Positions 28,245 to 54,194 of a stretch of DNA of 64,000 nucleotides are shown here, piece after piece. Positions within the stretch are counted from its first letter, which is position 1. Each line of letters begins with the position of its first letter. Both the position numbers and the translations under genes were made by a program. The DNA is taken from NCBI RefSeq assembly GCF_030944405.1, contig NZ_CP132340.1, positions 172,310-236,309 on the forward strand, written 5' to 3'. Source of the DNA: Janthinobacterium sp. J1-1 (GTDB lineage: Bacteria; Pseudomonadota; Gammaproteobacteria; Burkholderiales; Burkholderiaceae_D). The notes under the pieces are model-generated. The model ran no database searches, was not told the origin of the DNA, and was given only the letters and a program-made list of their open reading frames with translations.

Positions 28245-28304
28245 TGAGGTACCCTGACTTTTTCGGACACTCTAGTTTGGTAAACTTCACCAACTGGAGA
28301 ACTT

Positions 28305-28616
28305 ATGACACGCTCAACAACATACACACCGGAGCTTCGGGAAGAAGCGGTAAAACTGGTCCTGACACAAGGCCTGACGCTGGAAGACGCCGCGTTGCGT
28401 CTCACCATTCCCAAGGGCACGCTAGCGAACTGGGTCAGTGCGGCAAGGCGCGGCACGTCGCCCAAAGTAGCCCCTGGTAGCCGCTCCGTGCCGGAGCTTG
28501 AGGCTGAGGTAACCAAGCTGCGCAAAGAGCTTGCCGAGGCACGCATGGAGCGCGATATCGTAAAAAAAGCGGCAGCGTACTTTGCGCGGGAGTCGCTGCC
28601 AAGTACGCGGTCATGA
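28305..28616 (+). CDS. IS3-family OrfA (copy 1)
   Basis: 103 residues: helix-turn-helix (LTLEDAALRLTIPKGTLANW) and leucine-zipper segment (LEAEVTKLRKELAEARMERD). It contains an A7 run (28562-28568), a typical slippery site for -1 frameshifting to OrfAB. The stop overlaps the orfB ATG (ATGA), allowing coupling. Confidence 0.92.
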   Translation: MTRSTTYTPELREEAVKLVLTQGLTLEDAALRLTIPKGTLANWVSAARRGTSPKVAPGSRSVPELEAEVTKLRKELAEARMERDIVKKAAAYFARESLPSTRS

Positions 28617-29473
28617 AGACCTTGCGACTCGAATTTCCTGTCACCATCATGTGCCGCGTCTTTGGCGTCTCGCGCAGCGGTTTCTACGCTTGGGCGAACG
28701 GCAAACCGTCGCAGCGGGCGCAGGACGACGCACGCCTGAAGGTCGCCATCGAGGCCGTGCACGCGCAGAGCCGGCAGACTTATGGCCCGTTGCGCATGCA
28801 GCCGGAACTGACGGCGCAAGGCTTTCCGGCCGGCCGTGATCGTATCGTCCGTCTGCGTCGCGAGCTCGCCCTGCGCTGCAAGCAAAAGCGCAAGTTCAAG
28901 GCCACCACGAACTCGAATCATGACCTGCCGGTGGCCGACAACCTGCTCAATCAGACTTTCGCGCCGACCCGGCCGAACGAAGCCTGGGTGACCGACATCA
29001 CCTATGTGGCGACCGGCGAGGGCTGGCTTTACCTGGCCGGTATCAAGGACGTGTTCACCTGCGAGCTGGTGGGCTACGCGATGGACGAGCGCATGACGCA
29101 AACGCTGACGGCAACAGCACTGTGGAAGGCCGTGCGCAACAAACGCCCCGCGCCGGGCTTGATTCACCACTCCGACCGTGGCAGTCAGTATTGCGCCCAC
29201 GACTATCAGAAACTGGTGACGCAGTTCGGCATGAAGCCGTCCATGTCGCGCCGAGGAAACTGCTATGACAACGCGCCCATGGAAAGCTTCTGGGGCAGCC
29301 TGAAAAACGAGCTGGTGCACCATCAACGTTACGCGACCCGGGCCGACGCGAAAGCCGCAATACAGGAATATATCGAAAGCTTTTACAACCGCCAGCGACG
29401 CCATTCGCGCCTTGGCAATGTTCCGCCCGCGTTGTTCGCTGAAAAATTCAGCAAACAGCCGCGGGTGGCTTGA
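28613..29473 (+). CDS. IS3-family OrfB transposase (copy 1)
   Basis: 286 residues. HTH_21 region, then the DDE core: [25 protein letters not shown] and DNAPMESFWGSLKNE. It differs from copy 2 by one noticed substitution (Ala for Ser in WANGK). Looks functional. Confidence 0.95.
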   Translation: MKTLRLEFPVTIMCRVFGVSRSGFYAWANGKPSQRAQDDARLKVAIEAVHAQSRQTYGPLRMQPELTAQGFPAGRDRIVRLRRELALRCKQKRKFKATTNSNHDLPVADNLLNQTFAPTRPNEAWVTDITYVATGEGWLYLAGIKDVFTCELVGYAMDERMTQTLTATALWKAVRNKRPAPGLIHHSDRGSQYCAHDYQKLVTQFGMKPSMSRRGNCYDNAPMESFWGSLKNELVHHQRYATRADAKAAIQEYIESFYNRQRRHSRLGNVPPALFAEKFSKQPRVA

Positions 29474-29506
29474 AACAAGAGTGTCCGCTATTGACAGTAC
29501 ACCTCA

Positions 29507-38072: not shown

Positions 38073-38184
38073 GTGAAACACTCCAGATACCTCCGGCGAA
38101 ATACCGGATGGTTACATACTGGGGTGGAAACTATTGGACGCTGTTTCCACCCCGAATCTGGAAAGTTTTGCACGCTGTTTGACA
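37453..38184 (-). mobile_element. Second IS21-family element, only left part left
   Basis: The outer end is TGTCAAACAGCGTGCAAAAC on the minus strand from 38184, followed by the repeated IS21 box motif (CAGCGTGCAAAACTTTCC and CAGCGTCCAATAGTTTCC). It contains the 5' part of istA. It is a different IS21 subtype from the element at 30.0 kb and is cut by the Tn7-like transposon. Confidence 0.8.
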
Positions 38185-38269
38185 GTTGAGCTGCTCTGCT
38201 TGCAACTTGGACGAGCAAGAGGCGCTCACTTGGTTCTCGCTAACGATGTCTGAGTGTGGCATGTGCGTC

Positions 38270-40690
38270 CTATCCTTGATGTGAGTTCATGGCACGGGTG
38301 CTCGCCGGTGCCACCTGTCCTCGAAGACGCAGTGCATTGGTGATTACTGAGACCGAGCTAAGACTCATGGCGAGTGCGGCAATCATGGGCGACAGCAGCT
38401 GTCCAGTGAAGGGATAGAGCACCCCAGCTGCCAGTGGAACTCCGAGCGCGTTGTAGACAAAGGCAAAGCCGAGGTTTTGCCACATGTTTCGCACTGTCTG
38501 TACAGAGATGGAGCGAGCGACCGCAATGCCGCGCAGGTCTCCCTTCACAAGGGTGATGTGGGCACTGTTAATGGCCACATCCGTCCCCGTACCCATGGCT
38601 ACACCGACGTTTGCTTTGGCGAGCGCCGGCGCATCATTGATGCCGTCGCCAGCCATTGCGACAACCCGCCCCGCCTTCTGCAGCTTATCTACCAAAGCTA
38701 GCTTGTCTTGAGGCTTTACTTCGCCATGGAACTCGTCTATCCCGAGTTTCGAGGCAACCGAGCGCGCCGTTGTGATTCCATCCCCGGTAGCCATCACGAC
38801 AGCAATCCCATCGTTACGAAGATTTGTCAGTGCCTCTATCGTTGTCTCCTTGATAGGGTCTGATACCGCCAGGATTCCCACAAGCGCGCCGTCCTTGGCC
38901 AAATACATTACGCTGGCGCCCTCTGCTCTTAAACTCTCGGCATGTCCTGTGAGGCCGGCCCAAGCTACGCCCAAAGACTCCATCAGCGCCGTATTTCCTA
39001 GAGCAACACGTTTTCCCTCTACGACACCTGTCACCCCGATACCACTTGCAGACTCAAAGGACTCAGGCTTCGAAAGCGAAATCCCTCTGCTTTTCGCCTC
39101 AGCTACGATAGCGTGGGCTAGCGGATGTTCGCTGCCTTGGTCGAGGCTGGCGGCAAGCTGCAGGACGTACTCATCGTCATTTCCTGGGGCTGCGACAACG
39201 GTGTTAAACGTCGGCTTCCCTTCCGTTAGCGTTCCCGTCTTGTCTACAATGAGGGTATCCACTTTTCGAAGGTCTTCGATAGCCGCAGCATCGCGGAAGA
39301 GAACTCCCTGCGTTGCCGCACGGCCGGTCGCAGCCATGATGGACATCGGGGTGGCCAAGCCGAGCGCGCATGGGCAGGCAATAATGAGCACTGCTACCGC
39401 ATTGACGAATCCAAAAACCCAGCTTGGTTCGGGACCAAACAGCCCCCAGACCACAAAGGTCAAAACCGCGATTGCGGCCACGACGACAACGAAATATCCA
39501 GCTACCGAGTCAGCCAGGCGCTGCATTGGTGCGCGTGAACGCTGAGCCTGCGAAACCATCTGGACAATCTGCGACAGCATCGTTTCTGACCCGACCTTCT
39601 CCGCGGTCATAACAAGGCTTCCGCTTGTGTTGATAGTTGCGCCTATCAGCCGGTCGCCAGGTCTTTTCGTTACGGGCACGGGTTCGCCTGTCAGCATCGA
39701 CTCGTCAACCGCGCTCTCCCCTTCCAACACGACTCCGTCTACCGGCACCTTCTCGCCTGGACGAACCCTAAGGGAATCCCCAACGTGCACATGAGTGAGT
39801 GGTACATCTTTCTCGCTTCCGTCCGAAGCGATTCGCCTTGCAGTCTTGGGAGCCAAGCCCAGCAATGATTTGATGGCAGCAGACGTCTGCGAGCGCGCGC
39901 GCAGTTCGAGGATTTGGCCGAGCAGCGTCAGCGAAACGATTACTGCCGCCGCCTCGAAGTACACACCAATGCGACCGTGGCTCGCGAAACTAATTGGGAA
40001 AGCGCTTGGCGCCAAAGTAGCAACGACGCTGTAGCCATACGCAGCCATGACCCCTGAGCCAATGAGCGTCCACATATTCGGGCTCATGCGTATGAGGGAT
40101 TGGAACCATCGCACAAAGAATGGCCAGCCTGCCCAGAGAACGACCGGTGTGCTTAGCGCTAACTCAATCCAGTTCTGTCCCGCTACGCCTGCCGGGAAAA
40201 GCATATGGCCGAACATTGCCAGTGCAAAGACAACTGCTGTCAGTGGTAGCGTCCACCAGAAGCGCCGGCGAAAGTCGACCAGCTCTGGATTTTCTTCATC
40301 TTCCAACGACGGGAGCTCAGGCTCTAACGCCATACCGCAAATCGGGCAATTTCCCGGCGCAGGCTGTCGAATCTCAGGATGCATCGGACAGATAAAAATT
40401 GTCCCTGCCGGTGCTTCCTGTAGGCGCACCTCGGCTGAGTTATCTGGGGCTAAATAGCTCTCTGGAGCGGCCCTGAACTTAACCATGCATTTTGCGCTGC
40501 AGAAGTGATATACCTCGCCCTTAAACGAAATCTCGCGCTCAGGGTTAGAACCAACTTTCATGCCACACACTGGGTCAGTGAACGGCTTCGGGTCTGCCGG
40601 TTGGTCGGGAAGGCGCGTGGATTCTTCGCCGTGCGAATGATGATGGCCGTGTCCCGCCATACGGTCGTGTGTAGCTTTACTCTCAGCCAT
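38270..40690 (-). CDS. copA: Copper-translocating P1B-type ATPase
   Basis: 806 residues. His-rich N-terminus (HGHHHSHG), a YHS metal-trafficking domain (about 38-80: [18 protein letters not shown]), a HMBD block with [20 protein letters not shown] (about 101-122), eight membrane helices, CPC in the transport helix ([11 protein letters not shown], about 436), the phosphorylation motif DKTGTLT (about 482) and GDGINDAPA (about 678). CPC is the Cu(I)/Ag(I) class. The CueR-type promoter upstream is split by an IS, so expression is uncertain. It is transcribed in the same direction as the copper operon. Confidence 0.93.
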
Positions 40691-40791
40691 GGTCGCCTCT
40701 CAATGTTCGTGATGTCGTCCGAAGCTGCAGCACTACTTACAAAATGTGCGGCAGAGTTGCGTATCTACGCGTGAAAGCTCATTCACAGTTC

Positions 40792-40797
40792 ACTTTA
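40792..40797 (-). promoter_or_regulatory. -10 half of the split copA promoter
   Basis: TAAAGT on the minus strand, preceded by GGAAGGCC (40798-40805), the downstream arm of a CueR-type dyad. Its partner -35 and upstream arm are on the far side of an inserted IS (42471-42483). Confidence 0.7.
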
Positions 40798-40840
40798 GGC
40801 CTTCCAATACGGTAGTTGTCAACAAAGATGTCGCGTCAAG

Positions 40841-41899
40841 TCATGCAGCTTTTCTTAATTCCTCTGGCGGTTTCCGCTCCGGATTCAGCCAGACCTCATC
40901 GTTCAATTCCCAATCCCGCGTAGTCCCGGTCCAGCGCTCTGGATGACGTTGCTTGGCGGCCTCGTAGACCTGCTTGCGGTGCTTGAGGATCGCTCCGTCC
41001 CGGCCATCATGGCGTTGCGCAGGCGTCACGAATTTCAGGCCGCTGTGCTTGTGCTGATGGTTGTACCACTGCACAAATGACAGCGTCCATTGCCGCGCCT
41101 TTTCGATACTTTCAAACGGCTTGCTCGGATAGTTCGGCCGGTATTTGCAGGTCCGGAACAGCGACTCGGCGTAGGCATTGTCGTTGCTCACACGGGGCCT
41201 GCTGAACGACGGCATGATCCCCAGCTTTTCCAACGTCGCCAACATTGTGGAGCCTTTCATCGAGCTGCCATTGTCCGAGTGCAGCACCACCTCACGCCCG
41301 GCCAGTCCCTCTGCCAGACTGGCTTTGCGCATCAGCAGCGAGGCCATTTCCGCCGACTCGGCGATGTTCACTTCATGCCCGACGATCTTGCGGCTGTAGA
41401 CGTCAAGAACCATGTACCAGTAAAAATATAAACCCCGCACACCGGTCGGCAACCAGGTAATGTCCCACGCCCACAAGCGGTTCGGTTCGATTGCGCAGTG
41501 GCTCGTGACGACCCTTGTGCTGGGCTTCTTCGCCCGACCGCGGTGATGCTGCTGCTTCTCTTCTTTCAAGATCCGGTAGACGGTCGATTCTGATGCCAGA
41601 TACTCGCCCCGGTCAGCCAAGGTCGGCACGATCTGGCTAGGCGGACTGCTGGCAAATTCAGGGCTGTTGGCAACCGTCAGAATCTGCTGGCGTTCCTCTT
41701 CGCTCAGCTTGTTGGCCGGCGCCCTGCGGCGGCTGCCTTTGCGCCCGTCGGCCTGGCTGCCATCACTGTCGAGCATCCAGCGCTGATAGGTTCGAAGGCT
41801 GATCTCCAGCGCACCACATGCCTGCGCACGCCGACACCCGCCGTCAACGGCTTCTTCAACCAATATCATCACCTGCTGGCGATCTGGGGTGCCGATCAA
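40841..41899 (-). CDS. IS3-family OrfB transposase
   Basis: 352 residues, probable TTG start overlapping the orfA stop (TTGA). DDE core: LWAWDITWLPTG, VVLHSDNGSSMKG and SNDNAYAESLFRT, followed by HSGLKFVTP. Family HTH_21-like region at the start. Complete. Confidence 0.9.
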   Translation of the reverse strand: MIGTPDRQQVMILVEEAVDGGCRRAQACGALEISLRTYQRWMLDSDGSQADGRKGSRRRAPANKLSEEERQQILTVANSPEFASSPPSQIVPTLADRGEYLASESTVYRILKEEKQQHHRGRAKKPSTRVVTSHCAIEPNRLWAWDITWLPTGVRGLYFYWYMVLDVYSRKIVGHEVNIAESAEMASLLMRKASLAEGLAGREVVLHSDNGSSMKGSTMLATLEKLGIMPSFSRPRVSNDNAYAESLFRTCKYRPNYPSKPFESIEKARQWTLSFVQWYNHQHKHSGLKFVTPAQRHDGRDGAILKHRKQVYEAAKQRHPERWTGTTRDWELNDEVWLNPERKPPEELRKAA

Positions 41900-42393
41900 T
41901 CGTCCTCGGGCTCCCCCCAGATCGCCTGTGCTTTTTTTCTGAGAATGATCAGCGCCGCTGCCTCTGCCAGTGCCTTCTCTTTGCGCTGCAAATCCTTCTT
42001 CAATTGCTTGATTTCTTTGCGGTCGCTTTTGCCTTGCTCGCGCAGTTCCCGGTTGCGCTCGGCCGGCGCTTCATTGGCCTGCTGGCAAGCCTCGCGCCAG
42101 TCGGCAACCTGTTCGACGAACAAGCCTTTGCCCCGACAGTATTGAGCCAGTTCGGCCTCGTTCATGCGTGCCGTTTCCAGCACCACCCCAAACTTATCTG
42201 CCGACGACCACACGACGGCATTCTTTCCATTTCCCGGCACCGGCACTCCCTGAGACTGTAGATTTCGTCGCCAAGTATAAAGTGTCTGTTCCGAGATGCC
42301 ATTCTCCTTCGCCAGGGCCGACACCGGCCTGTTCTCCGGCGGCATCATCTGCCGAAGAATGGCTTCCTTGCGTTCTGCTGGATACTGATTCAC
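41896..42393 (-). CDS. IS3-family OrfA
   Basis: 165 residues, longer than usual for OrfA. Helix-turn-helix (PVSALAKENGISEQTLYTWR) and a long charged coiled coil (REQGKSDRKEIKQLKKDLQR). Ends with a 4-bp overlap with orfB. Confidence 0.88.
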   Translation of the reverse strand: MNQYPAERKEAILRQMMPPENRPVSALAKENGISEQTLYTWRRNLQSQGVPVPGNGKNAVVWSSADKFGVVLETARMNEAELAQYCRGKGLFVEQVADWREACQQANEAPAERNRELREQGKSDRKEIKQLKKDLQRKEKALAEAAALIILRKKAQAIWGEPEDD

Positions 42394-42470
42394 TGTACGT
42401 CTTTGCTCCGCCCCCGGATGGATTAAAGTGATTCAAGTGACGCGACATCTATCCTGACATAGGGGGAATA

Positions 42471-42483
42471 ATAGGAAGGTCAA
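42471..42483 (-). promoter_or_regulatory. -35 half of the split copA promoter
   Basis: On the minus strand CTTGACCTTCCTAT: -35 TTGACC (42478-42483) and the upstream dyad arm ACCTTCC. After virtual removal of the IS the spacer to TAAAGT is 19 bp with ACCTTCC-TATTATT-GGAAGG(C), the same design as the intact CueR promoter at 52.0 kb. Confidence 0.75.
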
Positions 42484-42497
42484 GCACGTTTACGCTG

Positions 42498-42527
42498 CCG
42501 GATATCGCAGAAATTTGCGGTATCCGG
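42498..42527 (-). terminator. Hairpin after copD
   Basis: CCGGATATCGCA/TGCGGTATCCGG, a 12-bp stem with one wobble and a 6-nt loop, 14 bp after the copD stop. No long T-tract follows. It separates the operon from the copA promoter. Confidence 0.55.
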
Positions 42528-42540
42528 ACAGTTAACACAC

Positions 42541-43440
42541 TCACATGGCAGCTGGCGGCTGTTGCGCAGTCAGAACAGCCGCTGCAAACAACACAGCAAG
42601 TAAGACAATGCTTTCTACCTTTAGCGCAAACTTCACGCGCGCGATACCTTGCGCTGAGTTCCGCGCAAGGGCTAGTCCGAAAAATTTGTTGTACCCGCCC
42701 AGTAGCAACGCCACTGCAACTAGAGCGACCTTTACCAAAAGCGCCGTCGTGTAGAGGGTGCCGCCAAGAAGGTTGTCTACGGTGCCAACCCTGTGCCATG
42801 AGTTAAATAATCCCGTGGCAAAAATCGCGATGACTGCAACAGTGGCCGCTACCGACATCGCCTCGAGATATCCACCCATCCGATTCGAATCGTCTTGGAG
42901 CGCGTCGGCTCCCATCGCCTTCCAAGCTGAGACAAACACCAGGCCGGTCCATGCTCCCATAGCAGTTAGATGAACAACCTCAGCTGCAAAAGGAATAGTC
43001 CAGTAACCGTTCTCTCCTGCGTGGCCCATCGATGCGCGTACAAACGCAAAGACGCCTAATGCCGCAAGCACTGCCCACTCACGCCATGCGGCCGTTGAAC
43101 GATAGGCGCGAATCGCGAGTGCGAGCGCTAGAGCACCAAGCGAAATATAGCCAGCTCGTCCAATACTCGTCATGGTCAACATCTGCCACACGAGGTCCTT
43201 AGCTTCGGCCAGGCTTACACCACCCATGACTGCAGCGGAAGCCCATAGGCCCGCGCAGCCTGCCAACACTCCTAGTGCTCCAGCAAAGATGTCAGCTGAA
43301 CCTAACAGGTGTTCGGTGTCCGTTTTCGAGGTGCCCACAGCGGACATCCAGCGGCGCGCCAACCATGAACCTACAAGCCAAGCAAACGCAACGTTCAAGA
43401 AAATGGCTGACCCAACCTGCAGACCCAGGACACTATCCAT
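42541..43440 (-). CDS. copD: CopD copper-resistance inner-membrane protein
   Basis: 299 residues, about eight membrane helices. Conserved His/Trp/Arg features of CopD: FVRASMGHAGENG, VVHLTAMGAWTGL, GLFNSWHRVG and LLLGGYNKFF. CopD works with CopC in copper import or handling across the inner membrane. Its ATG directly abuts the copC stop, so the pair is coupled; it is the last gene of the operon. Confidence 0.92.
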   Translation of the reverse strand: MDSVLGLQVGSAIFLNVAFAWLVGSWLARRWMSAVGTSKTDTEHLLGSADIFAGALGVLAGCAGLWASAAVMGGVSLAEAKDLVWQMLTMTSIGRAGYISLGALALALAIRAYRSTAAWREWAVLAALGVFAFVRASMGHAGENGYWTIPFAAEVVHLTAMGAWTGLVFVSAWKAMGADALQDDSNRMGGYLEAMSVAATVAVIAIFATGLFNSWHRVGTVDNLLGGTLYTTALLVKVALVAVALLLGGYNKFFGLALARNSAQGIARVKFALKVESIVLLAVLFAAAVLTAQQPPAAM

Positions 43441-43809
43441 TTATTTCACCGAGAATGAGAAGGTTCCCGTACGGCGGTGACCATCGTTGCCGGCGACGGC
43501 CCACTTAACGGTGTAAGTGCCGGTGGACAGTCCCTTGGTTTGGAGGCGCACGATTTTCGGGTTACCGACGTCGACCTTGGCCTTGTCGGTTGCGATGACC
43601 TTACCGTCCGTATAAGTCAACGTCACGGTGCTAAACGCCTGCTCGACCTTTTCGTTGAAGGTCAGGGTGATTTCGGCAGGAGCTGTCTCTAAGACCGCCC
43701 CTGGCGTCGGGTTCGAGGTACTGAGTTTCGCGTGCGCCATGACAAATGGGGCCGCAATGGTGGCTGCTGTAAAAACGCAGGCTGCTACGATTTTTTGAAG
43801 GGTTTTCAT
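43441..43809 (-). CDS. copC: CopC periplasmic copper-binding protein
   Basis: 122 residues. Signal peptide ending at FVMA, so the mature protein starts HAKLSTSNP: an N-terminal His that can form the CopC copper brace together with Asp/His in NDGHRRTG. The core LTFNEKVEQAFSTVTL is typical of the CopC beta-barrel. The Met-rich Cu(I) loop is absent, indicating a Cu(II)-only type. Confidence 0.92.
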   Translation of the reverse strand: MKTLQKIVAACVFTAATIAAPFVMAHAKLSTSNPTPGAVLETAPAEITLTFNEKVEQAFSTVTLTYTDGKVIATDKAKVDVGNPKIVRLQTKGLSTGTYTVKWAVAGNDGHRRTGTFSFSVK

Positions 43810-44135
43810 ATTGCCTCTATGTAGGTGATTGGTTACTTGGCTTTACGGGAAGACCAGTGAACGTGCGTGATGACCCACTTGTCACCCTGCTTTTCCAATA
43901 CGGCAGTCTCGGTGCCAAACGAGTGAACATCGGTCCCTTTGAACTTGCCTTTTGTTTCCGTTTCACGTGTGACGATGGCGATATTTCCCTCAACTCTTTC
44001 GTTCTGTCGCACGACCGTTTGACTTGTGGCCTTGGCAAACGCGATGTCGCCAGGAAGATGGTGACCAGCGTACTCTGAGGTACCCTGACTTTTTCGGACA
44101 CTCTAGTTTGGTAAACTTCACCAACTGGAGAACTT

Positions 44136-44447
44136 ATGACACGCTCAACAACATACACACCGGAGCTTCGGGAAGAAGCGGTAAAACTGGTCCTGACACA
44201 AGGCCTGACGCTGGAAGACGCCGCGTTGCGTCTCACCATTCCCAAGGGCACGCTAGCGAACTGGGTCAGTGCGGCAAGGCGCGGCACGTCGCCCAAAGTA
44301 GCCCCTGGTAGCCGCTCCGTGCCGGAGCTTGAGGCTGAGGTAACCAAGCTGCGCAAAGAGCTTGCCGAGGCACGCATGGAGCGCGATATCGTAAAAAAGC
44401 GGCAGCGTACTTTGCGCGGGAGTCGCTGCCAAGTACGCGGTCATGAA
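44136..44447 (+). pseudogene. IS3-family OrfA (copy 2), shifted frame
   Basis: Same as copy 1 up to DIVKK, then an A6 run (44393-44398) instead of A7 shifts the reading frame, giving RQRTLRG and a long nonsense extension to 44669. The shift is not toward the orfB frame, so the normal OrfA end is lost and OrfAB formation would need a different slip. Could be a real indel or a sequencing error in a homopolymer. Confidence 0.8.
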
Positions 44448-45303
44448 GACCTTGCGACTCGAATTTCCTGTCACCATCATGTGCCGCGTCTTTGGCGTCT
44501 CGCGCAGCGGTTTCTACGCTTGGTCGAACGGCAAACCGTCGCAGCGGGCGCAGGACGACGCACGCCTGAAGGTCGCCATCGAGGCCGTGCACGCGCAGAG
44601 CCGGCAGACTTATGGCCCGTTGCGCATGCAGCCGGAACTGACGGCGCAAGGCTTTCCGGCCGGCCGTGATCGTATCGTCCGTCTGCGTCGCGAGCTCGCC
44701 CTGCGCTGCAAGCAAAAGCGCAAGTTCAAGGCCACCACGAACTCGAATCATGACCTGCCGGTGGCCGACAACCTGCTCAATCAGACTTTCGCGCCGACCC
44801 GGCCGAACGAAGCCTGGGTGACCGACATCACCTATGTGGCGACCGGCGAGGGCTGGCTTTACCTGGCCGGTATCAAGGACGTGTTCACCTGCGAGCTGGT
44901 GGGCTACGCGATGGACGAGCGCATGACGCAAACGCTGACGGCAACAGCACTGTGGAAGGCCGTGCGCAACAAACGCCCCGCGCCGGGCTTGATTCACCAC
45001 TCCGACCGTGGCAGTCAGTATTGCGCCCACGACTATCAGAAACTGGTGACGCAGTTCGGCATGAAGCCGTCCATGTCGCGCCGAGGAAACTGCTATGACA
45101 ACGCGCCCATGGAAAGCTTCTGGGGCAGCCTGAAAAACGAGCTGGTGCACCATCAACGTTACGCGACCCGGGCCGACGCGAAAGCCGCAATACAGGAATA
45201 TATCGAAAGCTTTTACAACCGCCAGCGACGCCATTCGCGCCTTGGCAATGTTCCGCCCGCGTTGTTCGCTGAAAAATTCAGCAAACAGCCGCGGGTGGCT
45301 TGA
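44443..45303 (+). CDS. IS3-family OrfB transposase (copy 2)
   Basis: 286 residues, same as copy 1 except WSNGK in place of WANGK. All three DDE blocks intact ([36 protein letters not shown]). Independent expression depends on its own ATG. Confidence 0.93.
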   Translation: MKTLRLEFPVTIMCRVFGVSRSGFYAWSNGKPSQRAQDDARLKVAIEAVHAQSRQTYGPLRMQPELTAQGFPAGRDRIVRLRRELALRCKQKRKFKATTNSNHDLPVADNLLNQTFAPTRPNEAWVTDITYVATGEGWLYLAGIKDVFTCELVGYAMDERMTQTLTATALWKAVRNKRPAPGLIHHSDRGSQYCAHDYQKLVTQFGMKPSMSRRGNCYDNAPMESFWGSLKNELVHHQRYATRADAKAAIQEYIESFYNRQRRHSRLGNVPPALFAEKFSKQPRVA

Positions 45304-45613
45304 AACAAGAGTGTCCGCTATTGACAGTACACCTCACTCATCGCGGGAGCGCTCGACGTAACCGGACTCGAAAATGTTGATGGTTGGGGAGAGGAAAACG
45401 GTTGCTGCGTCAGCCTTTCCGGCGGACAGTGCCGCATGAAACGCAGTTAACGTTTCAAGCGGCGTTGCTGCGAATGCCTGAAGCGATGCGGCCGAGATAG
45501 CAATGGCAAACAGTGTTTTACGCATAGATTTATAGGTTGGTAGTTGTAGGGGACGACCCGACAAGCTATTCATCGCTGACAGGCTTGTCGGCTCTTCGCT
45601 CAGCTGCAGCGTC

Positions 45614-46228
45614 TTATTTCTTCGCCGAAGATTTCTTCATTTCTGCCATGTGTGCCACTTCTTTCTTCTGCATCTCGACGAGCTTGTTTGCGAACTCTTT
45701 AACTTCGGCGTGCTCGAGCTTTGGTGCCGCGGTCTGCGCCATCTTGATTGCGCCTTTGTGGTGCTGACTCATCATGTCCACAAACATGCGGTCAAACTGC
45801 TCGCCCTTCGCCGACGTTAGCTTGTCGCCTGTCATTCCCTTCATCGACTCGGACATGCCTGGCATCTTCATGTTTACTGCATCTGGTTTGCCGGCATACC
45901 ACTGCTCTTTCCAACCCTTGAGCTGCGCAATCTCTTTCTCCTGCTCGGCCATCATCTTCTTGGCCATACCCTTGAGGTGTTCGCTGGCAGAACGAGTTTC
46001 GACCAGGCTGGCCATGTGCATAGCCATCTGATGGTGCATCGCCATGGTGTCCAGGAACTGCAGTTCATACGGCGCCTTAGCCGCGTTCGGCGAGCTCTTG
46101 TGCATCGACTGCATGTTTGTCATGTCATGCCCAGCGGCACCGTGTGCGCCGCTTTGATGCTGAGGTGCCGCGTTAGCAGACAGCGCAATCACGGCGATTG
46201 CGGCTAGTGCGATTTTCGAGATTTTCAT
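45614..46228 (-). CDS. DUF305 (CopM-like) periplasmic copper-binding protein
   Basis: 204 residues from the ATG at 46228, preceded by AAGGAGT. Signal peptide (ISKIALAAIAVIALSANA), a His/Met linker (HQSGAHGAAGHDMTNMQSMH), then two DUF305 helical-bundle repeats with FLDTMAMHHQMAMHMA and FVDMMSQHHKGAIKMA. Those HHxxAxxM motifs bind copper or silver in characterised members. Sits between the CusF-like and NTF2-like genes; its upstream region has been separated from the operon by the IS630 element. Confidence 0.88.
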   Translation of the reverse strand: MKISKIALAAIAVIALSANAAPQHQSGAHGAAGHDMTNMQSMHKSSPNAAKAPYELQFLDTMAMHHQMAMHMASLVETRSASEHLKGMAKKMMAEQEKEIAQLKGWKEQWYAGKPDAVNMKMPGMSESMKGMTGDKLTSAKGEQFDRMFVDMMSQHHKGAIKMAQTAAPKLEHAEVKEFANKLVEMQKKEVAHMAEMKKSSAKK

Positions 46229-46276
46229 ATTTACTCCTTGGTTGGTTGCAAAAGTACTCATCCGATTACATACACC

Positions 46277-47447
46277 TAGTGTCATGAGTTAAAAATTCAT
46301 TGAATAAATATTTTCCTTAGCTATGTTGTGTATATTGGATGCACAACATGGAGGCTGACATGGGAGCAGGTCGTCCGAAAGCTGAATTGGTTTTGACGGA
46401 GTCGGAGCGTGAGCAATTGGCAGCTTGGGCAAGGCGCCGCAAGACGGCTCAGGCGTTGGCACTGCGTTCGCGAATCGTATTGGCTTGCTCATATGGCGCT
46501 GAGAACCAGGCGGTTGCGGCGGACCTGAAGGTGGCGAAACAGACAGTGTGCAAATGGCGAGGCCGCTTCCTGCAGATGCGGCTTGATGGCCTGCTTGATG
46601 CGCCTCGCTCCGGTGCGCCCAGGACGATCGACGACGCGCGCGTGGATGCTGTCATCGCCAAGACCTTGGAAACGCAGCCGATGAATGCCACCCATTGGAG
46701 TACGCGGACAATGGCCAAAGAAAGCAAGCTGTCGCAGACAGCGGTAAGTCGGATTTGGCGCGCTTTCGGGCTGCAACCGCACCGCCAGGAAACGTTCAAG
46801 CTGTCCACCGATCCATTGTTTGTTGAAAAGACCCGGGACATTGTGGGCCTGTACATTGATCCTCCGGTCAAAGCCATGGTGCTCTGCGTCGATGAGAAAA
46901 GCCAGATCCAGGCGCTCGACCGGACCCAGCCGATTCTGCCCCTGGCGCCCGGCGTTGCCGAACGGCGCACGCATGATTACGAGCGCCACGGGACGACCAC
47001 ACTGTTCGCCGCGCTCGACATCGCCACCGGCAAGGTCATTGGTGAGCTGCATCGTCGCCATCGCAGCGCTGAATTTTTGAAATTCCTTCGCACCATCGAA
47101 GCATCCGTTCCGCAGGATCTCGATGTGCATCTCGTGATGGACAACTATGGCACCCATAAGACGCCGACCATCCGGAACTGGTTTGCCCGCCACCCCCGCT
47201 TCCATGTCCATTTCACGCCAACATCGGCTTCGTGGCTGAATCAAGTTGAACGCTGGTTTGCGACCTTGACGGAGAAGCAAATACGACGCGGCACGCATCG
47301 ATCAACTCGCCAATTGGAAGATGCTATCCGCGCTTACCTCAAGATAAATAATGAAGAACCCAAGCCTTTCGTTTGGACAAAATCGGCCGACGCAATCTTG
47401 GCGAGCGTCGAGCGATTTTGTCTGCGAATTTCTAACTCAGGACACTA
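46277..47447 (+). mobile_element. IS630-family insertion sequence with TA target duplication
   Basis: Ends CTAGTGTCATGAGTTAAAAA and, inverted, CTAGTGTCCTGAGTTAGAAA. The TA at both outer edges (46277-46278 and 47446-47447) is the expected IS630 target duplication. It is inserted in the copper operon, transcribed against it. Confidence 0.9.
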
Positions 47448-47448
47448 G
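46360..47448 (+). CDS. IS630-family DDE transposase
   Basis: About 362 residues. The ATG at 46360 has GGAGG 5 nt upstream; 46339 and 46348 are in-frame alternatives. N-terminal helix-turn-helix ([20 protein letters not shown]), DDE core with [24 protein letters not shown] and WLNQVERWF. The stop codon TAG is formed at the duplicated TA. Intact. Confidence 0.93.
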
Positions 47449-47491
47449 CGCCGATGCTGATTCAGACACAGACGCCTCCTACCTCCCTTAC

Positions 47492-47845
47492 TTATTTTTG
47501 AAGCACCAACTGGGTCACCACCAAGCGCCCATCAAGCCTTTCAGCGACGAACTTAATCTTGTCGCCGGCCTTGAGCGTATCGAGTGCTGAAACGTCCTTT
47601 ACACCGAATACCATGGTCATGCCGGACATACCAAGGTTCTCTAGTGGACCGTGTTTGATAGTCAAACGCCCGGTATCTTTATCGACTTTCTTGACTTCGC
47701 CTTCCGACAGTGCCAGTTCTTGACCTGCGACTGCCGCGGGTGCGGGAGCGTGATTTTCACGGTCGTGAGACTGCGCCATCGCATTATTGAAAGCGAGGAG
47801 AGCAACTATGGCGGCGACATTAGCAATGATTTTTGCGATTTTCAT
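47492..47845 (-). CDS. CusF-like periplasmic copper-binding protein
   Basis: 117 residues. Signal peptide (ANVAAIVALLAFNNAMA), His-containing linker, then a CusF/CopK-like OB-fold: GEVKKVDKDTGRLTIKHGPL with the His ligand, and GMSGMTMVFGV with the two Met ligands; the capping Trp of E. coli CusF is not evident. It likely shuttles Cu(I)/Ag(I) in the periplasm. Downstream of the multicopper oxidase gene by about 95 bp. Confidence 0.85.
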   Translation of the reverse strand: MKIAKIIANVAAIVALLAFNNAMAQSHDRENHAPAPAAVAGQELALSEGEVKKVDKDTGRLTIKHGPLENLGMSGMTMVFGVKDVSALDTLKAGDKIKFVAERLDGRLVVTQLVLQK

Positions 47846-47942
47846 TCGATATCTCTTCTTTAATTTAGGTTTAGCAGCCCCATTTCGAACTGCCAGTTAC
47901 AACGCTATTCACTGCGCTCAAACTCAGCCACTTCGCTCGAGG

Positions 47943-49334
47943 TCAATGCCCAGAATGGCCCGATGGCTTACGGACGTTAAATTCCACATTCTGAGCAGGC
48001 TTACCTGCAGGCATAGACTGCCCGCCGGCTGAGGTGTTCCTGGTGGCTTCCGGCGGGGCACCATTCCATTCATACGCCAGAGTTCCAGCAGGGTGCTTGT
48101 ACCAACCCGGGTCGCTGTAATCGCCGCGCTTCTGTTCCTTACGAACCTTCATCACGGTGAACATCCCGCCCATCTCAACCCCACCGAATGGCCCTTGTCC
48201 ACCCATCATCGGCAAAGTGTTCTCTGGCAGTGGCATTTCCATCTCACCCATCGCTCCACCTGTCGAGCCCATGGCCATGTAGTCCGGAATGATTGAGCTA
48301 ATCTTCTTCGCGACGTCGCTCTGAGATACGCCAATCATGTTGGGAACGTCATGTCCCATTGCATTCATTGTGTGGTGAGATTTATGGCAGTGAAATGCCC
48401 AGTCGCCCAGGTCACTTGCGACAAACTCGATAGCGCGCATCTGACCCACGCCAACGTCGACGGTCACTTCTGGCCAACGCGATTCTGGTCGAGTCCAGCC
48501 CCCGTCAGTGCCCGTTACCTCGAACTCGTGCCCGTGCAGGTGAATCGGGTGATTGGTCATCGTCAGATTGCCGAAGCGAATGCGGACCCGCTCGCCCTGG
48601 CGCGCGACCATCGAATCGATTCCCGGAAATACCCGACTGTTAAACGTGAACAAATTGAAGTTCAGCATTGTCGATGTCTTAGGCACGAAGCTACCAGGCT
48701 CGATGTCGTAGCTACCGAGGAGGAATACGTAGTCGCGGTCGACTTTCATGAAGTTGGGATTCTTCGGGTGGGTCACCCAGAACCCCATCATTCCCATGGC
48801 CATCTGGACCATTTCGTCCGCATGCGGGTGATACATGAAGGTGCCCGGGCGCTTTGCCTCAAATTCATAGACCATCGTCTTACCGGGCTGGATAGGTTTT
48901 TGCGTTAGGCCAGCTACGCCATCCATGCCGTTGGGCAAACGCTGACCGTGCCAGTGCACACTGGTATGCTCCGGGAGCCTATTCGTCACAAAAATCCGAA
49001 CACGGTCGCCTTCAACAACTTCAATGGTTGGCCCCGGTGAAGCACCGTTGTAACCCCAGAGATTCGCTTTCATGCCCGGCGCAAATTCACGTACGACGGG
49101 CTCAGCAACCAAGTGAAATTCCTTTACCCCGTTGTTCATACGCCAAGGGAGCGACCAACCGTTGAGCGTCACCACTGGGTTGTATGGACGCCCATTCGGT
49201 GGTGGCGGTGGCACCTGTGTTGAAGCACTCTGCATGATTACTGCTTCTGGGAGGGATGCTGCGCCAACGCGGCTAACTACCCCGGCCCCGACCAAGGCTG
49301 CTGCACCGGTGAATAAATCTCTACGTGAAACCAT
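47943..49334 (-). CDS. Multicopper oxidase, CopA/PcoA-like
   Basis: 463 residues from the ATG at 49334 (GGGAGAG upstream). Twin-arginine signal (SRRDLFTGAAALVGAG). Copper ligands: HWHG (127-130), HPHADE (169-174), HPIHLHGHEF (about 290) and HCHKSHHTMNAMGH (about 340), giving type 1, 2 and 3 sites. The C-terminal part is Met/Gly-rich (MGEMEMPLP, MMGGQGPFGGVEMGGM), typical of cuprous oxidases. It oxidises Cu(I) in the periplasm. Partner genes in the operon are copper-related. Confidence 0.92.
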   Translation of the reverse strand: MVSRRDLFTGAAALVGAGVVSRVGAASLPEAVIMQSASTQVPPPPPNGRPYNPVVTLNGWSLPWRMNNGVKEFHLVAEPVVREFAPGMKANLWGYNGASPGPTIEVVEGDRVRIFVTNRLPEHTSVHWHGQRLPNGMDGVAGLTQKPIQPGKTMVYEFEAKRPGTFMYHPHADEMVQMAMGMMGFWVTHPKNPNFMKVDRDYVFLLGSYDIEPGSFVPKTSTMLNFNLFTFNSRVFPGIDSMVARQGERVRIRFGNLTMTNHPIHLHGHEFEVTGTDGGWTRPESRWPEVTVDVGVGQMRAIEFVASDLGDWAFHCHKSHHTMNAMGHDVPNMIGVSQSDVAKKISSIIPDYMAMGSTGGAMGEMEMPLPENTLPMMGGQGPFGGVEMGGMFTVMKVRKEQKRGDYSDPGWYKHPAGTLAYEWNGAPPEATRNTSAGGQSMPAGKPAQNVEFNVRKPSGHSGH

Positions 49335-49348
49335 TTCAACTCTCCCAA

Positions 49349-50767
49349 TTAATGTTGTGCTGCTGGCGCAGAACTTGAACTTGCCGTCACTGCTTGCGAA
49401 ACAGCCCCGCCGCCGCCATTGATAGCTGCTTGCATGTCGGTCTCTGCAATCCAAAAATCGCGCTGCGCTTCAATGGCGCCGTTCACGCTCATCACCTGGT
49501 CGCGCGCATCGGCCAGAAGCTCGAACACGCTGGCAAGCATGCCGTTGTAACGAAGAAGGACTTCGTCCGAAATTTGCTTTCTTAAAGGGACGACTTCATC
49601 GCGGTAGTGCTTGGCGACGTCGTAAGTAGTCCGGTACGCCGAATACGCTTCGCGCACTTCCGAGCGCGCTCTAATGGCAGTGTCAGCGGTACGGTTAAGA
49701 GACATCATGTAGGTAGCCTTGGCACGAGCCCGTCGTGCCCCGCCCCAGTCAAAAATGGGCAACTCCAGTGATATGTCGTAGCCATTTTCGCGAGGTGCGC
49801 CCGTTGTACTTTTATTGGCATATCCAGCGTCAAGGACATTGATGAAGCCCGTCGCGTTGGTCAGGCCCAACGACCGAGCAGTAGCGTCGACATCTCGTTT
49901 GGCAAACTGGATGTCGAGCCTCTGCTCCATCGCCATTGCCTCAAGCGCACCAGGCTCATTCGGCTTTTGCGGCAGGTCCGGCAAGCGGTCAGGAATTTTG
50001 AAGTTGATGTTCGAACCCCAGAGGCCGAGTAACCGCACCAGTTGTTCACGTGCAGCCGTCGCAGCATGGCGGGTACGGGCGTACTGCGTCGTTGCTTCGG
50101 CATAAAACGCCTGCTGGCGTGCCCTGTCCAGTTTGCTAGAGTTACCAACCTTCGCCTGCTCTTGCGCCAGTTGAGCTCCAGCCTCGGCTGAAATTACTAC
50201 TTGGCTCATGAATTTCTCTGCCTGAGCAGCCGCTACAGCGTTGAAGTAAGCCCGGCGAGTTTCGCTAGCTAAGCGGACGGCTTCTGACGCTGCAACCAGC
50301 TTCGCTTGTTCAAACCGACCGCGTTCGATAGTGCTTCGAACTGGAAGAGTCAGGAGGCCAATCAAATCGAACATGACGCTACGTCCGATTTCAGTAGTGT
50401 CGACGCCCCGCATCTTGCTAAACGAGAAACCAGGGTTACGCAGCCGGCCGGCTTGAACGAAGTCGGCTTCCGATACGCCCAGCTCCGCCAGTGACGCCTG
50501 GAAGCCGCGATTGTTGAGCAGGGCAATCTGTACAGCGCTGTCCGGTGTCAGCGGCGACGACAACAACTTCGAGACTTCAGTAGTGCTAGTCTGCGCATCT
50601 TTGTCGTTGCGCTCTGCCGAGACTCCGAAGCCGGTCCGCGGTTTCGTCAACTTTGAGACGTCAGTTGCTCCGCCGTCGCTAGATAGCGTCGAGCACCCGG
50701 CCAAAACTGATATCGCTAGAAGGAGGCCAGAAGTCTTCAAAGCAGGTGTGATATTCAGAGGCCTCAT
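49349..50767 (-). CDS. TolC-family outer-membrane lipoprotein
   Basis: 472 residues. Lipobox LAISVLAGC, an unordered linker of about 60 residues, then two OEP repeats (QIALLNNRGFQASLAELGVS; RRARAKATYMMSLNRTADTA) and an Ala/Ser-rich tail. Such TolC-like proteins occur in copper operons between a His-rich protein and the multicopper oxidase. No RND genes are adjacent, so it may couple to another pump. Start overlaps the preceding gene (ATGA). Confidence 0.88.
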   Translation of the reverse strand: MRPLNITPALKTSGLLLAISVLAGCSTLSSDGGATDVSKLTKPRTGFGVSAERNDKDAQTSTTEVSKLLSSPLTPDSAVQIALLNNRGFQASLAELGVSEADFVQAGRLRNPGFSFSKMRGVDTTEIGRSVMFDLIGLLTLPVRSTIERGRFEQAKLVAASEAVRLASETRRAYFNAVAAAQAEKFMSQVVISAEAGAQLAQEQAKVGNSSKLDRARQQAFYAEATTQYARTRHAATAAREQLVRLLGLWGSNINFKIPDRLPDLPQKPNEPGALEAMAMEQRLDIQFAKRDVDATARSLGLTNATGFINVLDAGYANKSTTGAPRENGYDISLELPIFDWGGARRARAKATYMMSLNRTADTAIRARSEVREAYSAYRTTYDVAKHYRDEVVPLRKQISDEVLLRYNGMLASVFELLADARDQVMSVNGAIEAQRDFWIAETDMQAAINGGGGAVSQAVTASSSSAPAAQH

Positions 50768-51417
50768 TTCCTGGTTCCTTTTTCTTGAGGTTGCTGATGC
50801 TGCCCATGCGCAGCGTCATTCATTGCTCCACTCGCAGGTGCTGCGCTAGCCGCATTGGCTGGCTTCTTCGGCTGGCCCATCTGGTGCCCAGCATGCGAGC
50901 CGGGCTTTGGAGCTGGTGCCATCTGATGACCTGCGTGTGGGTCTGGCTTTGGAGTTGGCGCCATTTGATGACCGGTATGCACTGCAGCGGCAGGTTGGCC
51001 ATTAGACGTCGCTGGAGAGGCTGTTGGAGCTGGCATTTGATGACCGGCATGGGACGCCTGGCCAGCGGGTGCAGCTGGTGTTGCGCGGCTCGGGCTAGCG
51101 CTTGGATTTGCACCTTGGGCCGGCATCGTGTGCCCAGCGTGGCCGCTAGCATCTTGCGGCGCCGGAGATTCGGCCCCATGAGCTTCCCCATGCATGCCCT
51201 CGCTTGCAACTGTAGCGTTAGCCTCTCGCCAAACTTTGTCAGGTGAGACGTTACTTTCCCTCACTGGGGTGTATGTCGACAAAACCGAGGTGTACGACGT
51301 TTGCGGAACTTGGGCAGCTGGGTCAGCGACCTTAAGAGAAACTGGAGGCTCGCTCGCAAAGGACACGAGCGAAGTTACGGCTGCCGCGGTAGCGGCAACA
51401 AAACGCTTTGAAAACAT
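50764..51417 (-). CDS. Periplasmic His/Met-repeat protein (HAGHQM repeats)
   Basis: 217 residues. Signal peptide (RFVAATAAAVTSLVSFA), a short folded-looking N-terminal part with SYTSVLSTYTPVRESNVSPD and KVWREAN, then a Pro/Ala-rich region with five H(A/T)GH(Q/T)M motifs, ideal for binding several copper ions. The second gene of the operon, coupled to the TolC-like gene by ATGA. Similar proteins precede TolC/copper oxidase pairs in related bacteria; likely a copper buffer. Confidence 0.8.
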   Translation of the reverse strand: MFSKRFVAATAAAVTSLVSFASEPPVSLKVADPAAQVPQTSYTSVLSTYTPVRESNVSPDKVWREANATVASEGMHGEAHGAESPAPQDASGHAGHTMPAQGANPSASPSRATPAAPAGQASHAGHQMPAPTASPATSNGQPAAAVHTGHQMAPTPKPDPHAGHQMAPAPKPGSHAGHQMGQPKKPANAASAAPASGAMNDAAHGQHQQPQEKGTRK

Positions 51418-51514
51418 AGTTTTCCCAAAATCGAAAGTAGGCGCGCAGTAGTATTGCGCGACAAAAGCACAACGAAATACGAGCGAGTACGCGCGTCGTT
51501 GCTACCGAAAACGA

Positions 51515-51949
51515 TTAAACGGCGAAGGGCCGGGGGGGACGTTCGAGACTGTCGGGGATGAATCCGCCGACAAATGTAGAGCCGAAGGTCTCATAGACCT
51601 CAGCGTTACTGAAGGAAGGTTTGAAGGTCAACAGCTGAGGGGGAGCGAAGGCCCCAACAGAGCAAGCAGCACAAGCACTGCACGACCCATGCTTGATGCT
51701 TGTGGACGTCTCGCTGCTCTGTTTGCTAGACGACGCCATCTCTGGGCAATGGTCATCCTGGCCGGACGGTTGGTCCATGCCTGCACCGTCAGAAATATCT
51801 GATACGTTACCGTGGTCCATTGCGCTGGCGACCATGCTCATACTCTGATGACTTGAACCGCACGCCCGCAGCACATTCGCTGCGAATGCCTGGAAAGGCA
51901 TCACGGCGATTAGCAGCCATAGTACGTAGGTTTTCAGGGTTCGATTCAT
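51515..51949 (-). CDS. DUF2946-like small secreted/membrane protein, first gene of the copper operon
   Basis: 144 residues from the ATG at 51949. Hydrophobic N-terminus (TYVLWLLIAVMPFQAFAA), a Ser/Met/His/Asp-rich middle and CSACAACSVGAF near the C-terminus, followed by PSFSNAEVYETFGSTFVGGF and RPPR at the end, the pattern of DUF2946-type proteins found at heads of metal operons. The longer frame to 52120 crosses the promoter and is rejected. Possible metal sensor or chaperone role; unknown. Confidence 0.7.
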   Translation of the reverse strand: MNRTLKTYVLWLLIAVMPFQAFAANVLRACGSSHQSMSMVASAMDHGNVSDISDGAGMDQPSGQDDHCPEMASSSKQSSETSTSIKHGSCSACAACSVGAFAPPQLLTFKPSFSNAEVYETFGSTFVGGFIPDSLERPPRPFAV

Positions 51950-51999
51950 TGGTCGAAAGTGTAGCACGAGCTCTTTCACCGTCAGGGTGACACAAATCC

Positions 52000-52030
52000 A
52001 AGATACACCTTCCCACAACAGGAAGGTCAA
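52000..52030 (-). promoter_or_regulatory. CueR-type promoter of the copper operon
   Basis: On the minus strand -35 TTGACC (52025-52030), 19-bp spacer, -10 TATCTT (52000-52005). The spacer holds the perfect dyad ACCTTCC-TGTTGTG-GGAAGGT (52007-52027), matching known CueR sites. The start codon of the first gene is about 50 bp downstream. Confidence 0.9.
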
Positions 52031-52171
52031 GCGAAATCGCGCTGAACTTAACAAATAGTTGCGTCTGCCGCGCCCCGGCTCCGTGGCATTGTCAGATTTA
52101 CAAAAAAGAGGCAATATCAATACGCTACGAAAATAGATGATTTTGCGCTACCACAACATTACGGTATTTAC

Positions 52172-53206
52172 ATGATGACCCTCATCCGACTCTGGTTTTC
52201 CCTGCTTCTGCTTGTATCGACGCAAGCTGGTGCTCAAGAGTCACAAGTCAGCCAGAACCTTCGCTCATGCGAGGCCGGGTATTCAAGCTGCGACATATCT
52301 TTATTGAACGCGTCTCAACTTGAACGGGTTCGTCAATCAACCCTCGCACGAAACTTCCGTTCTTGCGACAGTGGATACTCAAGCTGTGACTTGGCTCTGC
52401 TGACTGAACCTCAGCGAACACAGGTTCACAGCTCTGCCTTGGTAAGGAACTTTCGCAGCTGCGATAGCGGTTACAGCAGCTGTGACGAATCCTTACTAAC
52501 GACAGCACAGCAGGCACAAGTCCTCAAATCCCAGCACAGCCGAAACTTTCGGAGCTGCGATAACGGATATTCATCCTGCGACCTAACATTGCTCACACAG
52601 CAGCAGCATGACAAAGTTAAACTCTCAGCCCTGGCTCGAAATTTCGCCAACTGCGATAGGGGGTACTCAGGGTGCGATACGGCGCTTTTGACTGCAGCAC
52701 AGCGCGCACAAGTCGATGCGTCAGGTCGTACCCGCAATTTCCACAGCTGCAACAGCGGATACTCTGGATGCGATGCGAGCATCCTCACTGACGTCCAACG
52801 TACGACCGTCACGGAATCCGCATCACGCCGAAATGCGTACAACTGCCAGAAGGGGTACAGCAGCTGTATCCATACAGTCAGGACTTCGGAGTCACTATCG
52901 TCTGCGCCAGGACGTAGTTCAAGCTCGCCCCACGCCCGCACTCGCGACACCTACATTACAGATGGCCAACAGGCTTCTTTTGAAACGGCGAAGAGCGCGC
53001 CAACTAAACCTAAGGCGCCAACTGCCCTGGGCCCTGACGCAGTCGAAACAGTCGTGTTACCAGTCGCAGCCGGGCCGTCTTGCGCTGAGAATGGGTCCTG
53101 CTATGGCGACATCAGCTCAGCAACACTAAGGCCCAAGACGACACACGTTAGCGGGTACACACGTCGTGATGGAACGTACGTTCGCGGACACTACCGTAGC
53201 AAGTAA
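52172..53206 (+). CDS. Secreted protein with seven 32-residue Cys repeats
   Basis: 344 residues. Signal peptide ending QAGA. From residue 29 to about 250 there are seven repeats of 32 residues with the core N(F/L)RSC-x2-GYS(S/G)CD, LLT-x2-Q-x3-V and a closing R; each repeat has two Cys seven apart. Repeats 2 and 3 encode the same core with different codons, so the protein sequence is conserved by selection, not by recent duplication. A Ser/Pro/Ala linker follows, then SCAENGSCYGDIS and a terminal SGYTRRDGTYVRGHYRS block seen in many secreted proteins. It is divergent from the copper operon. Function unknown. Confidence 0.85.
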   Translation: MMTLIRLWFSLLLLVSTQAGAQESQVSQNLRSCEAGYSSCDISLLNASQLERVRQSTLARNFRSCDSGYSSCDLALLTEPQRTQVHSSALVRNFRSCDSGYSSCDESLLTTAQQAQVLKSQHSRNFRSCDNGYSSCDLTLLTQQQHDKVKLSALARNFANCDRGYSGCDTALLTAAQRAQVDASGRTRNFHSCNSGYSGCDASILTDVQRTTVTESASRRNAYNCQKGYSSCIHTVRTSESLSSAPGRSSSSPHARTRDTYITDGQQASFETAKSAPTKPKAPTALGPDAVETVVLPVAAGPSCAENGSCYGDISSATLRPKTTHVSGYTRRDGTYVRGHYRSK

Positions 53207-53614
53207 TTGTAAACACGCGGCAGGCCTTGATACTGTCTGTTTACTTCTTATAGAAGTTACATCCCGGGCAAAGATGCCCCCTGCTTGCTAACGACAGCAA
53301 GCTCGCATCTCTGCCCGGCGGTGCGTGAATCGCCCGGGCATACCGGTTCGCGCAAATGCGCCGGTACTCCAGCCAGACTTCAAGCGAATTTGCTCGCTCC
53401 TACCTCACCTCTAGCTGCTGCCCAGTGTGCGCCCATGGTATCCCGCTTGACGCTCTTGTTCCTCGTCGACCGCGGGGTTTCGAGCCCTCTCCTCCGACGA
53501 AGTGGTATACGCAATGGTTTTATTCTTTTCTGTTCATCCGCTTGCTACCTTTCTGGGAAGAACATGCATCGCAACTGTCTTCCCACGGTAAAACACCTGA
53601 CAGATGCGCTCTAT
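53207..53614. other. Intergenic region between convergent genes with strong hairpins
   Basis: No gene. A 55-nt hairpin at 53264-53318 (CCGGGCA/TGCCCGG, AGATGC/GCATCT, GCTTGC/GCAAGC, 8-nt loop) and a smaller one at 53341-53366 (TACCGG/CCGGTA with inner CGC/GCG) lie after the Cys-repeat gene and before the end of cueR. Bidirectional termination is the simplest role. Confidence 0.55.
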
Positions 53615-54028
53615 CTAGGCCCTGGGCTCAGCTCGCACACGCGGTTGTGCCAGCTCATCAAGAATCGGACAGTCAGGGTGGGAGTCGCCATGGCAGTTCT
53701 TAGCCACGTGCTGCAGCTGGTCACGAATTGACTGCAGCTTCGCGATGTCATCATCGAGCTCGGCGATATATCGCTGAGCTAGTTCCTTCACGTCGGCACT
53801 TTGTCGGCTACGGTCCTGCCATAGGCTCAGTAAGGTCTTAATACGCTCGAGCGAGAAGCCCAGGTCACGAGAGCGTTTAATGAAGCGCAACGTTTGGACA
53901 TCACCCTCGTTGTATTGACGATAGCCTGAATCAGTGCGATTTGCAGCAGTAATCAAGCCTATACTTTCATAGTACCGGACCATTTTTGCGGTCACTCCTG
54001 AGGCGTCAGCAGCTTGTCCAATGTTCAC
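53615..54028 (-). CDS. cueR: CueR, copper-responsive MerR-family activator
   Basis: 137 residues, GTG start with AAAGGAAAA upstream. N-terminal winged helix (NIGQAADASGVTAKMVRYYE), dimer helix, metal loop NCHGDSHPDCPI with C112 and C120. Position 77 is Ser, the residue that marks sensors of monovalent Cu, Ag or Au. It should activate the 19-bp-spacer promoters at 52.0 kb and (before the IS) of copA. A short basic tail follows the loop. Confidence 0.92.
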   Translation of the reverse strand: MNIGQAADASGVTAKMVRYYESIGLITAANRTDSGYRQYNEGDVQTLRFIKRSRDLGFSLERIKTLLSLWQDRSRQSADVKELAQRYIAELDDDIAKLQSIRDQLQHVAKNCHGDSHPDCPILDELAQPRVRAEPRA

Positions 54029-54194
54029 ACCATTTTTCCTTTAGAAATGGTCCGCTCCTCCTAGGAAGCGGCGCGTTGTCCTTTGCTTAGGCGCCCCCGC
54101 ACGAGACCGGGCGCTGCCTTGCCTACAATCTAGTGACGCCCTCGCCGCAAGGGAGTGACAGTTGTGACAGTCTGCCGCATTCGCAGCACGCGTA

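Follow-up and report, generated by a model that had tools for sequence, protein, structure and literature searches.

The promoter of copA, the gene for a copper-translocating ATPase in Janthinobacterium sp. J1-1, is split by an IS3-like insertion sequence (IS) of 1657 bp lying between its -35 and -10 hexamers. The insertion has swapped the native -35 for a consensus hexamer at constant spacing and has dropped half of the operator for the copper regulator CueR. The host genome is 6.95 Mb in two contigs, and the stretch analysed here, 64,000 nucleotides that form the end of contig C2 (236 kb, a large replicon), is called the window hereafter; coordinates are those of the window unless a contig or locus is named. 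The case is a natural, base-precise exchange of half a promoter, the intact ancestral form of which is present in another genus, and with the two natural sequences the roles of operator, -35 and 19-bp spacing in a CueR promoter could be told apart. The case is also a warning that copper-resistance gene content is not the same as copper-inducible expression, that is, the pump gene is intact and the switch is not.

The split promoter and its ancestral form

The copA gene (38270..40690, minus strand) encodes a P1B-type copper ATPase of 806 amino acids in an intact frame, with YHS and HMBD N-terminal domains (Pfam), the CPC, DKTGT and GDGIND motifs and a score of 578.6 bits against TIGR01511 (copper-translocating P-type ATPase, cut-off 397). 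It has no internal stop and is identical to its orthologue in Massilia yuzhufengensis at 790 of 807 aligned columns, the stop being counted. Upstream of the gene, on the same strand, the native -10 TAAAGT (40792..40797) and the right arm of the CueR dyad, GGAAGG (40800..40805), are kept. Then follow one copy of the target duplication AATA (40806..40809), the IS (40810..42466) and the second AATA (42467..42470), beyond which the left dyad arm ACCTTCC (42474..42480) and the native -35 TTGACC (42478..42483) are stranded, now 1.66 kb off. At the present site, therefore, the complete dyad is absent and the right arm alone is contiguous with the -10. The position of the IS between the two hexamers was already given in a preliminary description of this DNA, which had also rebuilt the promoter by deletion of the IS.

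When the flanks are joined with one AATA removed, they give TTGACCTTCCTATTATTGGAAGGCCTAAAGT, in which TTGACC and TAAAGT are 19 bp apart and enclose the dyad ACCTTCC-N7-GGAAGG. Letter for letter, this sequence is found in M. yuzhufengensis (L036, NZ_FOLD01000021.1), where the -35 starts 132 bp upstream of the orthologous start, and again in a 20-kb stretch of that species (L161); the ancestral site in both loci has the 19-bp spacer and a dyad without mismatches. The uninterrupted sequence, which the preliminary description had proposed to look for in relatives, thus exists, and the view that the junction was never without the IS is excluded. The 210 bases adjoining the insertion site are matched in 4 of 294 family genomes, namely the host and three genomes of the group g18, and the junction was read in one of these, the M. 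yuzhufengensis genome G193. Moreover, all of the five nearest orthologues have a dyad promoter with the -35 at -123 to -133, the dyad being complete in two (L009 and L036) and having one mismatch in three (L010, L011 and L012). From the empty site and these orthologues, the ancestral copA promoter was an ordinary one of the CueR/HmrR type. A scan with the 31-base CueR-promoter pattern found it in 80 of 288 family genomes, and since the reversed control gave zero among the matches listed, a match to the pattern is not due to chance.

The same island retains an intact promoter of this type at 52000..52030 (minus strand, TTGACC-19-TATCTT, complete dyad, no mismatches to the pattern), which bears out the earlier comparison of the two designs. 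In addition, a CueR-family regulator gene is located at 53615..54028 (minus strand; TIGR02044, 181.1 bits, cut-off 147.4), and a C-x7-C motif near the C-terminus of its product was recognized by eye.

The insertion sequence

The IS lies on the minus strand and carries two consecutive frames, orfA (41896..42393), encoding a helix-turn-helix protein (HTH_Tnp_1), and orfB (40841..41899), encoding a DDE transposase with an rve domain (NF033516, IS3, 194.4 bits, cut-off 160). Both are on the minus strand like copA and consequently read toward it, as had been described. A whole-genome search found seven full-length copies, all of which have identical ends and each of which has its own 4-bp duplication (AATA, CTAT, ATGG, CTCA, TGCT, CAAC and CGAC). 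Six of the seven are identical, the window copy among them, and L007 is slightly different. Because the same ends recur in all of the seven copies, the borders of the IS are fixed independently of the copA site, and the borders and AATA duplication of the preliminary description prove exact to the base. Chance or an assembly artefact is ruled out by the seven matching pairs of ends with 4-bp duplications and by the empty site in L036 and L161. The structure of the split site and its history can be regarded as practically certain.

Members of the IS3 family typically make target duplications of 3-5 bp and have terminal 5'-TG...CA-3'. Two consecutive frames (an HTH orfA, then orfB) and a short target duplication of 4 bp are present here, but the termini are CCCCC... 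and ...ACCG in all of the seven copies and not TG...CA, so the element is called IS3-like, without a subgroup. Separately, two copies of the IS about 240 bp apart and in the same orientation were observed in L162 (13586-17140; G000:C2:83586-87139), where the pair adjoins the ATPase gene of a second copper island and a 477-aa frame enters the first copy.

An IS-borne -35 and a candidate hybrid promoter

A feature absent from the preliminary description is an outward-facing TTGACA in the end of the IS (40817..40822, minus strand), 19 bp from the native -10. All of the seven copies terminate, outward from orfB, in ...TTGACAACTACCG. At the present site TTGACA-19-TAAAGT thus replaces TTGACC-19-TAAAGT with the spacing of the ancestor, while the left arm ACCTTCC is supplanted by IS sequence ending in ACTACCG. 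The new combination is in the register of the CueR pattern with four mismatches in the pattern scan. Its -35 comes from the IS and its -10 from the target, as in an IS hybrid promoter, and its spacing of 19 bp is on the long side for a sigma-70 promoter that has no activator.

The hexamer is found in related ISs as well. From a longer match list the best 29 loci (L132-L160) were taken as the related set, and in 10 of these the end of the IS on the copA side could be seen; TTGACA stands in nine of them (identity 72-86% along the aligned part; five are partial matches) and TTGAAA in the tenth and most distant, L146 (68%). Since the hexamer is part of the terminal repeat, it may be conserved for transposition alone. 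In addition, the native -10 agrees with TATAAT in just four of six positions and the spacing is suboptimal, for which reasons the hybrid might be silent. A -10-like hexamer (at least four matches, at 15-21 bp) follows the outward TTGACA in two of the seven copies, the window copy (4/6 at 19 bp) and L005 (4/6 at 17 bp and 5/6 at 19 bp). As an observation apart, TTGACA in L005 (G000:C1:3724522-3726178) is 19 bp from TAAAAT, which is another possible hybrid promoter, and this candidate is upstream of a regulator gene that by eye looks to be of the MarR type. A promoter at the far end of the IS, composed of the native TTGACC and TATGTC of the IS at 16 bp, was also considered; its -10 has merely three of six matches and no claim is made for it.

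The copper island and further copper systems in the genome

From 38182 to 54154 the window is 97.3-100% identical to the 20-kb stretch of M. yuzhufengensis (G193:C36, L161), and three ISs are the sole large interruptions on the window side of the alignment; its end at 54154 is the end of the stretch compared and is no island boundary. Such identity between two genera of one family (g1 for the host, g18 for the relative) suggests a recent transfer of the island. In the ATPase piece there are 73 differences, all below 39200 and 42 of them in 38200-38399, and from 39200 up to the IS (40809) there are none, and the 3' part of copA (38182-39200) looks like a recombined allele.

The other two ISs are on the plus strand; both are absent from M. 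yuzhufengensis, and their sites are empty in L161. One is of the IS3 family (44076..45336), separates copC from the copper genes upstream and cuts short a small copper-island gene at 45334-45573. It has TG...CA ends and likely a CTC duplication. The second copper island holds a copy (L162 8096-9357) to which both this one and another in the window (28245-29506) are 99.9% identical. The other is of the IS630 family (46280..47444) with a CTAG duplication, and has a CusF-like gene on one side and a DUF305 gene on the other. In the ancestral island, transcription from the 52.0-kb promoter may possibly have read through to copC, copD and copA; judged from the sequence, such read-through toward copA, if any, is now broken by these two further ISs.

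The genome has further copper systems. The second copper island, also on contig C2, has its own complete CueR promoter at C2:72764 and an ATPase (C2:80607) identical to copA at 623 of 810 aligned positions, and on the chromosome there is a CopA gene next to a cueR, with a CueR-like site three mismatches from the pattern. P-type ATPase genes of all kinds number 11. This redundancy in copper ATPases may explain why lost control of one copy is tolerated. The earlier claim that copper control of copA has been cut is supported in so far as copA has lost its complete CueR site; it needs qualifying in that further copper ATPases are present and the possible read-through from 52.0 kb is itself interrupted by ISs.

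Predicted expression of copA

MerR-family regulators bind as dimers that use both arms of the operator, and promoters of the MerR type rely on the regulator distorting the 19-bp spacer. By transposing into the operator and spacer of a CueR-type copA promoter, the IS3-like element exchanged one promoter half; in the mechanism proposed here, CueR would be unable to grip and bend the resulting promoter, so that copper induction and repression by apo-CueR would both be lost. We hold it very probable that normal CueR control at the copA promoter is gone. Promoters under CueR/HmrR regulation need a spacer of 19 bp and are as a rule weak (PMC1526738), and in the mer system a 19-bp promoter is not activated without MerR and versions of 17-18 bp are constitutive (PMC11049809). 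Without an activator of the MerR type, the hybrid at 19 bp would therefore be weak as well, and expression of copA would be low and blind to copper, driven by the hybrid promoter and by read-through from the transposase genes. The preliminary description had left the choice between constitutive expression from the IS and none; between these, the sequence favours a weak TTGACA hybrid together with possible read-through, and low constitutive expression, rather than silence or strong expression, is what we consider reasonably likely.

As for read-through, a terminator-like site on the minus strand (41883-41868) could damp transcription from upstream, and from 41868 to the copA start the scan found no other terminator-like site on this strand. 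Two promoter candidates on the transposase strand within the IS have 9/12 matches each; because this total of two compares with 0.6 expected in shuffled sequences (sd 1.0), they are weak candidates. The scan admitted spacers of 16-18 bp only and so cannot report the hybrid.

That copA is effectively silenced, the hybrid being too weak, transposase transcription negligible, the loss tolerable with other copper ATPases present and the gene on its way to a pseudogene, is unlikely in our estimation. It would accord with the inactivity of the 19-bp mer promoter without its activator (PMC11049809) and with the second ATPase on the same replicon and the chromosomal CopA with its adjacent cueR, whereas the intact copA frame, the -35 which is now a consensus hexamer and the transposase frames oriented toward copA speak against it.

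Still less probable is that the capture by the IS was selected as a useful constitutive pump in a copper-rich habitat, comparable to zinc-resistant experimental lines of Cupriavidus. ISs with outward promoters do drive cnrCBAT after selection (PMC4803752), and a metal-rich habitat would fit the 11 P-type ATPase genes and the presence of two copper islands on a single replicon. However, a hybrid with 19-bp spacing is not of the strong kind, three different ISs in one island look like relaxed constraint and not like a single adaptive hit, and the insertion is seen in the host genome alone.

A continued copper response of the hybrid, on the ground that the -35 of the IS is in exact register and the spacing, the -10 and the right arm are all unchanged, has hardly any probability, since MerR-family proteins bind palindromic sites within the spacer (PMC1526738) and the left arm is now IS sequence. 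CueR might bind the surviving half-site weakly. A variant of this, in which the hybrid works as a MerR-type promoter with one arm and the IS captured copA yet left residual copper sensing through the downstream half-operator, is highly improbable too; if true, the site would show in nature whether CueR can untwist a 19-bp promoter from the downstream half-operator alone. Low, copper-blind expression is the reading preferred here.

Recurrence and comparison with known systems

Within the DNA compared, none of 80 copA loci carries the IS, the single match being a weak one (66-71%) in L015. In a near-mode search of the plasmid collection, copA with its promoter side gave no match; the IS region gave matches of 73-78% over 14-46% of the query in four Cupriavidus plasmids only. 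The one-armed signature TTGACA-N11-GGAAGG-N2-TANNNT is present in 6 of 288 family genomes. By eye, a left arm with one or two mismatches to ACCTTCC is recognizable in four of them, G049 lacks such an arm, and the sixth is that of the window; the five others gave no match to the window IS, the only IS searched for. There is thus no sign of recurrence of a one-armed promoter in what is a thin test. A chromosomal counterpart of the CueR promoter of G048 was dropped as a candidate, L172 being without similarity to L173 or L163.

In a literature search of open-licence papers by titles and abstract openings, no case of a CueR or MerR promoter split by an IS was found. The ancestral copA site has the 19-bp spacer and the ACCTTCC...GGAAGG dyad of the copA and actP promoters controlled by CueR/HmrR (PMC1526738), whereas the extant site has the right arm only. 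The gene set resembles, by description only, the plasmid cop cluster of Cupriavidus metallidurans CH34 with its copF ATPase (PMC7563307), in which copABCD-type genes and a P1B ATPase are likewise found on a large plasmid. In the hybrid or fusion promoters of IS911, IS2, ISKpn8 and other ISs, too, an outward -35 in the end of the IS, which in IS911 is the right end, is combined with an outside -10, and outward -35 elements of this sort at the right end are well documented for members of the IS3 family (PMC9330008). The IS911 junction, however, is described as optimally spaced and strong, while the copA site has the 19-bp spacing of the MerR type and the target is a split metalloregulated promoter. 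In C. metallidurans, also a betaproteobacterium, ISRme5 and IS1086 drive cnrCBAT from outward promoters, and the metal-sensing regulator of an efflux system is likewise bypassed (PMC4803752); that case was selected in the laboratory, is constitutive and has a measured start site (for ISRme5), whereas the copA case is natural and lies within a CueR operator. Capture of metal-efflux genes by ISs through outward promoters is therefore already described, and copA is a natural example of it; particular to copA are the base-precise split of the CueR operator and the conserved spacing of 19 bp.
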